Shown here: in pieces, positions 28,046 through 30,228 of the stretch
Layout: the number at the start of each line of letters is the position of its first letter
Position numbering within the stretch: position 1 is the stretch's first letter
Program-made: the position numbers and the translations under genes
Notes under the pieces: generated by a model
What the model was told of the DNA's origin: nothing
Seen by the model: only the letters and a program-made list of their open reading frames with translations
Databases searched by the model: none
Assembly (NCBI GenBank): GCA_019114445.1
Contig: DXFL01000011.1
Location: forward strand, 1 to 64,000
DNA length: 64,000 nucleotides
Source of the DNA: Candidatus Barnesiella excrementigallinarum
Lineage (GTDB): Bacteria > Bacteroidota > Bacteroidia > Bacteroidales > Barnesiellaceae
Direction of reading: 5' to 3'

Positions 28046-28483
28046 ATATATTTCTTTTTATTTTTAATTTTAAAAATCTTTATTGTTGATGATAATAGCC
28101 TGTTGAAAGCAGGGATAACTTGTTATTAAAACTCTTGCTTTTTTGGTTATCAAACTTTTGTTCGAGTTTATGAATATATAGTCAACTACTTTCTCTTTTT
28201 ATAATGAGCTTTTTATCTTTTTTATCAACGCCTTGTTTACAAGGTGCAAAGTTAATAACTTTATTCTATTTGTGTGATTGATAAATAGATATTTTAGGTT
28301 GATATATAGACTAAAAACTTAATGTATTATTATTTGCTTTTTTTGTACGAAGCAGTGTATAAAGATAAATTTCAAAAATCAAAGAATAGAATAAATTTTT
28401 TACATCACTATTTTGCAACGTTTTATAAACACTTAATAACAGCTTATGCACATATCGCATAATAGTAAAATTATTCATTTTAT
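28046..28483. other. AT-rich intergenic region, candidate part of a replication-origin region
   Basis: 438 bp AT-rich gap with TTATGCACA (28444-28452) and weaker DnaA-box-like TTATCAACG (28222-28230). Confidence 0.35.
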
Positions 28484-28561
28484 TTGAATAGCTTTTATAT
28501 CTGTTTGGTGTTGGCGTTCTTTACATTATCTTTGTTTCTGCTTATGGTAATAAACATAGTT

Positions 28562-29092
28562 ATGAAGAAAAAAAGCATACTGGATTTGAAAAGAATTTCA
28601 CAGGAAGAATTCAAGCACGCAGATAAAATACCTTTGGTAGTGATTTTGGATAATATACGAAGCCTTAATAATATAGGTTCGGTATTTCGTACTTCCGACG
28701 CTTTCAGAGTTGCTTGTATATATTTGTGTGGAATAACGGCTACACCGCCTCATGCCGATATTCATAAAACGGCTTTGGGTGCCGAGGATAGTGTGGACTG
28801 GATTTATGAGCAAGATACTTGTATGGTTGTTGATAAATTATTATCGGCAAATTATGAGGTCTATGCTATTGAGCAAGTAGAAAATAGTATAAGCCTGACA
28901 GATATTAAGTTAGATAAAAATAAAAAATATGCTGTTATTTTGGGTAACGAGGTAAAGGGTGTACAGCAATCGGTTGTGGATAAATGTACAGGCAGCATAG
29001 AAATACCGCAATTCGGTACTAAACACTCGTTGAATGTTTCGGTAACGGCCGGATTGGTAATTTGGGATTTTTTCAAACAGTTGGGATTATAG
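28562..29092 (+). CDS. TrmH/SpoU family RNA methyltransferase
   Basis: LDNIRSLNNIGSVFRTSDAF; AVILGNEVKGVQQSVVDKC; IPQFGTKHSLNVSVTAGLVIWDF. TATCTTTG -7 box at 28527-28534. Confidence 0.92.
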   Translation: MKKKSILDLKRISQEEFKHADKIPLVVILDNIRSLNNIGSVFRTSDAFRVACIYLCGITATPPHADIHKTALGAEDSVDWIYEQDTCMVVDKLLSANYEVYAIEQVENSISLTDIKLDKNKKYAVILGNEVKGVQQSVVDKCTGSIEIPQFGTKHSLNVSVTAGLVIWDFFKQLGL

Positions 29093-29689
29093 TGACCCTT
29101 GTTCTACCAATATGCAAATTCTTTCGATGGTTTTGTCTTCGCCTTCGGGATCCCAGTCGGTTTTTAGCGATGCACCGAACAGTTGACCGAAAAATTGCCA
29201 AAAATTGGCTCTGAAACTACCCAAGAAAGCTTTTATCAAATCGTATGACGATTGATTACATTCGCGATTGATAAGTTTAATAAGCATTTTCCCTTGTGAG
29301 AGGGTAAATTTTTTCAGTACGGGTTTATATTGTTGAAAAACCTCTTTTTCCATTTTTTTCATGTGATCGGCCCGAGCCTCATCGTCGGGTAGAGTTTCCA
29401 AATATTCGTACGTTTCTATGAAAATAGCATAGATCAATTTGGCGTATGGCAATGTTTTTTTTACATCGCGTACAGTTTTCCAATAGAATTTTTCTTGTTT
29501 TTTATTTTTGAATTTTTCGGGAGGAAATACATAAAAAGTACGAAGTTCTATTAGGGGTACCGTGTCGTTATCGACGATGGTCCAATAAAAACGTTTGTAT
29601 GCAGGGTGACTTTCCTGTATAATCTGCGACTTTATAGAAGGATTGTACAGGATAAGAAAAAGAAATAATATGGACAATAATTTCTTCAT
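29087..29689 (-). CDS. DUF4294 family secreted protein
   Basis: Signal peptide; FYWTIVDNDTVPLIELRTFYVFPPEKFKNKKQEKFYWKTVRDVKKTLPYAKL. Confidence 0.7.
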   Translation of the reverse strand: MKKLLSILFLFLILYNPSIKSQIIQESHPAYKRFYWTIVDNDTVPLIELRTFYVFPPEKFKNKKQEKFYWKTVRDVKKTLPYAKLIYAIFIETYEYLETLPDDEARADHMKKMEKEVFQQYKPVLKKFTLSQGKMLIKLINRECNQSSYDLIKAFLGSFRANFWQFFGQLFGASLKTDWDPEGEDKTIERICILVEQGSL

Positions 29690-29698
29690 TGGGTACAA

Positions 29699-30110
29699 AT
29701 GTAAACCTTTCGGTCATCATAACGACTAATTTTTGCAATAATTATATAATTCACACCGGTTTATAACGTATGTCGATTATTTGTAAATATGCTGTGAATA
29801 ATGTAGTTTATTACTTGTTAATTTATTGAATGATAGAATTTTATAAATTGTTGATAAGTATATGTTCAATAATGTTCCGATGGTTGAAATCTCGTGGATA
29901 AACTGTTGGTATTATCTTTTGTATTCTTTTTATATGAAGTGAGTTTATAAATTGTTGACAGAGTTGTGAATTATAAATATATATAATTGATAAACAATAA
30001 ATTAAAAAATATAAATAGGGTGTTTATAAATGTACTTATAAAATAATAGGTTGAAATACATAGATTGCTTGTCAACCTTATGGGTATACTATTATTGCAT
30101 ATTGTTAGTT
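29699..30110. other. Candidate chromosomal replication origin (DnaA-box-like cluster plus AT-rich unwinding-like block)
   Basis: TGTGAATAA (29793-29801), TGTTGATAA (29849-29857), CGTGGATAA (29893-29901), TGTGAATTA (29965-29973), then A/T-only runs about 29967-30017; 15-nt direct repeat TTTATAAATTGTTGA at 29840 and 29944. Confidence 0.5.
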
Positions 30111-30149
30111 AAAAAATCTGCCATTGATAATTGACATCAATGGCAGACT
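30111..30149 (-). terminator. Rho-independent terminator of the minus-strand T9SS cargo gene
   Basis: TCTGCCATTGATAATTGACATCAATGGCAGA hairpin with T-run on the minus strand. Confidence 0.8.
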
Positions 30150-30228
30150 ACTTTTTCTGTTAAATATTGGTTTTATCCTTTGGATTCTTTTCTTTGTTGT
30201 ACTTTTGCAGTAAGATTGTAATAATAGA

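Follow-up and report, generated by a model that had tools for sequence, protein, structure and literature searches.

Described replication origins and the Barnesiella locus

In Escherichia coli, oriC is a continuous site in which an A/T block is faced by a TGTGGATAA-type box and accompanied by weaker, helically spaced sites. The Barnesiella locus considered here shares the A/T block, the facing box and the weaker helically spaced sites, but it is split, and its weaker sites read TGTnnATA.

A second point of comparison is offered by the bipartite origins of Bacillus subtilis, Helicobacter pylori, the Epsilonproteobacteria and Clostridioides difficile, in which, as here, two box clusters lie across a coding sequence and are accompanied by A/T-rich candidate unwinding DNA (PMC5043019, PMC7561715). 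Published bipartite origins are thought to act by DnaA looping and are usually split by dnaA (PMC7561715, PMC5043019). In these systems dnaA parts the halves and a DnaA-trio has been reported, whereas in Barnesiella trmH and DUF4294 occupy that place, dnaA is remote and a canonical trio is missing from the scanned sequence.

Within the phylum, the predicted oriC of Prevotella intermedia OMA14 chromosome 1 and the Bacteroidetes entries of DoriC likewise combine multiple DnaA boxes at the skew transition with a distant dnaA (PMC4755523). Unlike the present locus, the P. intermedia oriC is a single 476-bp predicted region, and the available part of that account does not describe a two-part layout, a phased array or a nadA/trmH context. 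The novelty concerns the split architecture; the distance between origin and dnaA has already been reported for Bacteroidetes. Neither the two-part trmH-DUF4294 layout with its phased array nor an experimentally mapped Bacteroidales origin was found in the open-access papers searched.

Organization of the nadA-DUF4294 locus

The window, meaning the whole 64-kb stretch of DNA analyzed, is assigned by protein matches to the genus Barnesiella (order Bacteroidales) and carries the gene order rdgB, yitT, leuS, nadA (minus strand), IGR-A, trmH/SpoU (plus strand), DUF4294 (minus strand) and IGR-B, followed on the right by an inserted cargo gene, an HTH gene and a radical-SAM gene. IGR-A and IGR-B are separated by 1.1 kb across trmH and DUF4294. 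The main elements are as follows.

28,046-28,561: IGR-A, the nadA-trmH intergenic region, candidate ancestral oriC half
28562-29092, plus strand: trmH/SpoU-family RNA methyltransferase gene (Pfam PF00588), between IGR-A and IGR-B
29087-29689, minus strand: DUF4294 protein gene (Pfam PF14127), between IGR-A and IGR-B
29,690-30,228: IGR-B, the whole gap containing the region originally flagged
29690-30055: portion of IGR-B taken as candidate second oriC half (array and A/T block), from congener alignment and box statistics
30117-30147, minus strand: hairpin followed by a T-run, resembling a terminator for the inserted cargo gene and oriented toward IGR-B

The start codon of DUF4294 is the ATG at 29,689, and position 29,698 is a TTG. 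The Barnesiella comparison comprised this genome and eight congeners, and their alignment of IGR-B ends at about 30,056, where the cargo gene has been inserted. The initial annotation had given a T9SS cargo gene as the flank of the flagged region; the gene is present here as a lineage-specific insertion, and radical-SAM genes are the neighbors in 7/8 congeners. In this species the segment 30056-34650, which separates IGR-B from the radical-SAM promoter, is an insertion carrying the T9SS-type cargo gene and the HTH gene. G008 carries an insertion at the equivalent place, with the HTH gene alone in common (67%). An Rfam search of 26-36 kb of the window gave no match, and the 64-kb window is free of TGTTTCACGTGAAACA parS matches at up to three mismatches, a consensus that may not be that of this phylum.

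Strand composition and distance from dnaA

Cumulative GC skew across the window reaches its minimum at 28,078. A skew switch close to the flagged site had been proposed; the switch is real, and its minimum lies about 1.7 kb to the left, at a resolution of 1-2 kb that is blurred by codon bias. The sign of the skew is independent of gene direction, with genes on the left running plus and then minus and those on the right mostly minus. Fourfold-site skew of trmH and DUF4294, meant to separate IGR-A from IGR-B, was also blurred by codon bias.

At chromosome scale, skew was taken from sampled stretches of the sole complete congener (G001, 3.08 Mb). Between 308 and 1,800 kb the samples give negative or near-zero values, between 1,880 and 2,640 kb mostly positive ones, and fine mapping places the minimum at 1,836,657, the nadA edge of IGR-A. 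The reverse switch falls at about 260-300 kb and the antipode at about 300 kb; the locus shows a strand switch opposite the terminus, as is expected of an oriC. On the right arm, the samples at 2,464 and 2,850 kb have negative or near-zero values, which count against the origin reading.

Among the congeners, the minimum is inside or adjoining IGR-A in 7/8; in G003 it lies about 1.3 kb beyond IGR-A, within leuS. Four genomes from other families (G029, G033, G061 and G069) have it at the start of nadA or just upstream, and G010 about 4 kb from nadA. G036 is ambiguous, being box-densest at IGR-A, yet with a skew minimum over 60 kb that is 15 kb off.

The description of the site as far from dnaA holds: the gene is on a different contig in this genome, and in G001 it sits at 0.7 kb, about 1.2 Mb from the nadA-DUF4294 locus. 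Whole-chromosome skew in G001 points to the locus and not to dnaA. Origins remote from dnaA are stated to be common in Bacteroidetes (PMC4755523), and the remoteness observed here is therefore ordinary. A dnaA-linked origin was rejected because no box cluster flanks dnaA in any of the nine genomes.

The nadA-trmH intergenic region

IGR-A measures about 500-590 bp in 8/8 congeners, with a mean pairwise identity of 74%, part of which may perhaps be due to the nadA promoter. It contains the following features.

28046-28085: nadA-proximal A/T-rich stretch, candidate unwinding element by predicted stability
28084-28121: conserved block TTGTTGATGATAATAG..TGTTGA.AGC...GATAACTT, from alignment, recognizable in two further families
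28222-28230, plus strand: DnaA-box-like TTATCAACG, its position kept in most congeners
28423-28431, plus strand: TTATAAACA, aligned with a perfect TTATCCACA of G001, G003, G004, G005 and G008
28444-28452, plus strand: DnaA box TTATGCACA, one mismatch

In 9/9 Barnesiella species the 50-mer of lowest predicted stability in IGR-A occupies equal alignment columns. Its boxes (TTATCCACA, TTATCAACG) are oriented opposite to those of IGR-B and are degraded in AT-rich species; in the present AT-rich species IGR-A holds one box (p = 0.12, not significant), a count that speaks against the two-part reading. A scan for the canonical DnaA-trio (box, GC-rich spacer, 3'-[G/A]A[T/A] triplets) returned none that was convincing, which likewise speaks against it. 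The nearest approach is the A-rich TAAAAATAAAAA on the minus strand of IGR-A, and GATGATAAT, also in IGR-A, has the wrong polarity.

Two further elements were observed in this neighborhood. A strongly conserved near-palindrome at 28247-28300 (AAAGTTAATAACTTT; TCTATTT..AAATAGA) carries a TAnnTTTG-type promoter motif toward nadA, and may be a nadA operator instead of a part of the origin. Within trmH, a perfect DnaA box TTATCCACA lies on the minus strand at 28975-28983; the congeners showed no exact box within this gene.

The phased array and A/T block of IGR-B

The words on which the flagged region had been proposed (TGTGAATAA at 29793, TGTTGATAA at 29849, CGTGGATAA at 29893 and TGTGAATTA at 29965) are in place, as is the 15-nt direct repeat at 29840 and 29944. 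A second cluster (28,046-28,561) and a further box-like site (30021) are additions to that list. The features of IGR-B are given below, with boxes and array members in plus-strand reading where so marked.

29782-29790, minus strand: array member TGTAAATAT (plus reading)
29793-29801, minus strand: box TGTGAATAA (plus reading), 11 bp from the preceding array member TGTAAATAT
29849-29857, minus strand: box TGTTGATAA (plus reading)
29882-29913: conserved block with box CGTGGATAA (29893-29901), from alignment
29969-30018: A/T block of low predicted stability, candidate unwinding element
30021-30029, minus strand: box-like TGTTTATAA, right of the A/T block

The site aligned to TGTTTATAA reads TATTCACA..TGTGnATAA in several congeners. 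In this genome IGR-B has three boxes that differ from TTATCCACA by at most one base, where 0.34 would be expected (p = 0.004 by shuffling), and no AT-matched 400-bp window of the 64 kb (GC below 0.32) reaches three, so the cluster exceeds the AT-matched background. The looser TGTnnATA count is weaker and speaks against the two-part reading, with four sites against 1.5 expected (p = 0.06). Each of the eight congeners has 3-5 boxes in IGR-B (p at most 0.006 throughout), together with 5-9 plus-strand TGTnnATA sites against 0.5-0.8 expected. Many TGTnnATA spacings are of 11, 13, 23, 33, 44 or 55 bp. The paired 11-bp motif TGTNNATANNNTGTNNATA has 11 matches in the nine genomes (about 26 Mb), 8 of them in IGR-B, compared with 8 matches overall for the reversed pattern used as control.

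Nearest-neighbor energies rank 29,969-30,018 as the 50-mer of lowest stability in the 64 kb, in agreement with the unwinding-element resemblance noted initially. The least stable 50-mer of IGR-B falls at equal alignment columns in 6/9 Barnesiella species.

These counts leave little room for the suggestion that the array serves another repeat-recognizing regulator, or arose by chance in A/T-rich DNA with the origin elsewhere nearby: TGTnnATA is a less stringent motif than the classical box and the DnaA sites are predicted from sequence, but the TGTnnATA sites are interspersed with near-perfect DnaA boxes in shared orientation, the array motif is rare genome-wide and the AT-matched background is negative, which makes this explanation very improbable.

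Conservation across Barnesiella and other families

The flagged region is kept among the congeners by alignment and box counts. When 500-bp windows within 20 kb are ranked by DnaA-box density, IGR-B and IGR-A take the first two places in 7/8 of them; in G007 there is a tie with a third window. The locus displays the predicted features of an oriC, namely a box cluster above chance (IGR-B), a weak A/T block and a position kept in relatives.

In other Bacteroidales families that retain nadA-trmH, the densest TGTnnATA windows include the nadA-trmH gap, and the same nadA-side box cluster appears in two Prevotellaceae contigs (L098, L099). The densest cluster observed lies just upstream of nadA at L099:8660-9160, where a 500-bp span contains eight DnaA boxes of one mismatch each. 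G029, from another family, also has an IGR-B array past DUF4294, and two box clusters parted by coding sequence are found in the congeners and in G029, with trmH and DUF4294 in the position usually taken by dnaA. DUF4294 itself was discarded as an origin marker; in distant families, where it lies away from nadA/trmH, it is usually without origin signal.

One origin site or two

An oriC at the nadA-DUF4294 locus is very probable. The features shown are the strand-composition switch, the box clusters and their spacing, the predicted weak spots, conservation and the remoteness of dnaA. That this oriC has two parts, IGR-A and IGR-B, flanking trmH and DUF4294 rather than dnaA, is the reading we favor, and we regard it as reasonably probable. 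The identification of the flagged region as oriC withstood the conditions initially set for its refutation and is upheld for one half of a probable bipartite site, with IGR-A indicated as the ancestral core. IGR-A is probably the older origin because the skew minimum lies in it or next to it in 7/8 congeners and in genomes of four other families, and the sequence comparison suggests that the IGR-B half was probably added in some lineages.

The main competing explanation takes IGR-A alone as the origin and IGR-B as a DnaA-titrating or reloading site, comparable to E. coli datA or DARS, or as a promoter region under DnaA control that serves DUF4294 and the adjacent gene. The skew minima at IGR-A are consistent with it, as are the promoter-like TAnnTTTG motifs at both ends of IGR-B. 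Moreover, the nadA-upstream cluster is densest in other families without a visible IGR-B cluster, and in four other-family genomes it alone is clear, so that IGR-B need not belong to the origin. However, most Barnesiella species have a higher box count in IGR-B than in IGR-A, and in most species IGR-B also combines a same-strand phased array with the least stable DNA of the neighborhood; on balance we think this explanation unlikely.

The reverse assignment, in line with the initial annotation, would make IGR-B the sole origin and reduce IGR-A to a Barnesiella relic combined with a nadA/trmH promoter. Box counts and the melting minimum do favor IGR-B in this genome, and IGR-A boxes are degraded in AT-rich species. 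Skew minimum and deeper conservation nevertheless favor IGR-A, where five congeners keep perfect TTATCCACA boxes, and such an assignment appears quite improbable.

Proposed mechanism and the DnaA protein

For the two-part oriC, DnaA binding, looping, melting and initiation at the locus are predicted from these patterns. DnaA would occupy the better boxes in IGR-A and IGR-B and next fill the weaker, same-facing and helically spaced TGTnnATA sites of IGR-B. The complexes of both halves could then join, looping out the intervening 1.1 kb (trmH-DUF4294), after which an adjacent A/T block would melt, the helicase would load and two forks would depart outward.

Residues 423 and 432-435 of E. coli DnaA touch box bases (PMC5043019). 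In an alignment to 1j1v, with E. coli numbering from PMC5043019, Barnesiella DnaA has Ala at the positions of Thr435 and Pro423. In the product of this genome (L001; dnaA, G000:C30), the box-reading helix is KKDHATVLHA, with Ala at the Thr435 position, and SLAGIGD has Ala at the Pro423 position. We offer as a suggestion only that these substitutions could be related to the relaxed box center.

A broader evolutionary account, possible yet doubtful, is that the origin is in transition. In Barnesiella and in the lineage of G029, an ancestral nadA-side Bacteroidales origin may have acquired a second, phased array of DnaA sites on the far side of trmH-DUF4294. The resulting bipartite origin, lacking dnaA, would be read by a DnaA with DHATV instead of DHTTV and with any two center bases tolerated.

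Significance

Estimates of replication rate in gut microbes rely on a known replication start, and the nadA-trmH-DUF4294 landmark provides a testable origin position for several families. If the two-part reading is true, Barnesiella would possess a bipartite origin that is not built on dnaA, and the split design would be independent of a central dnaA.
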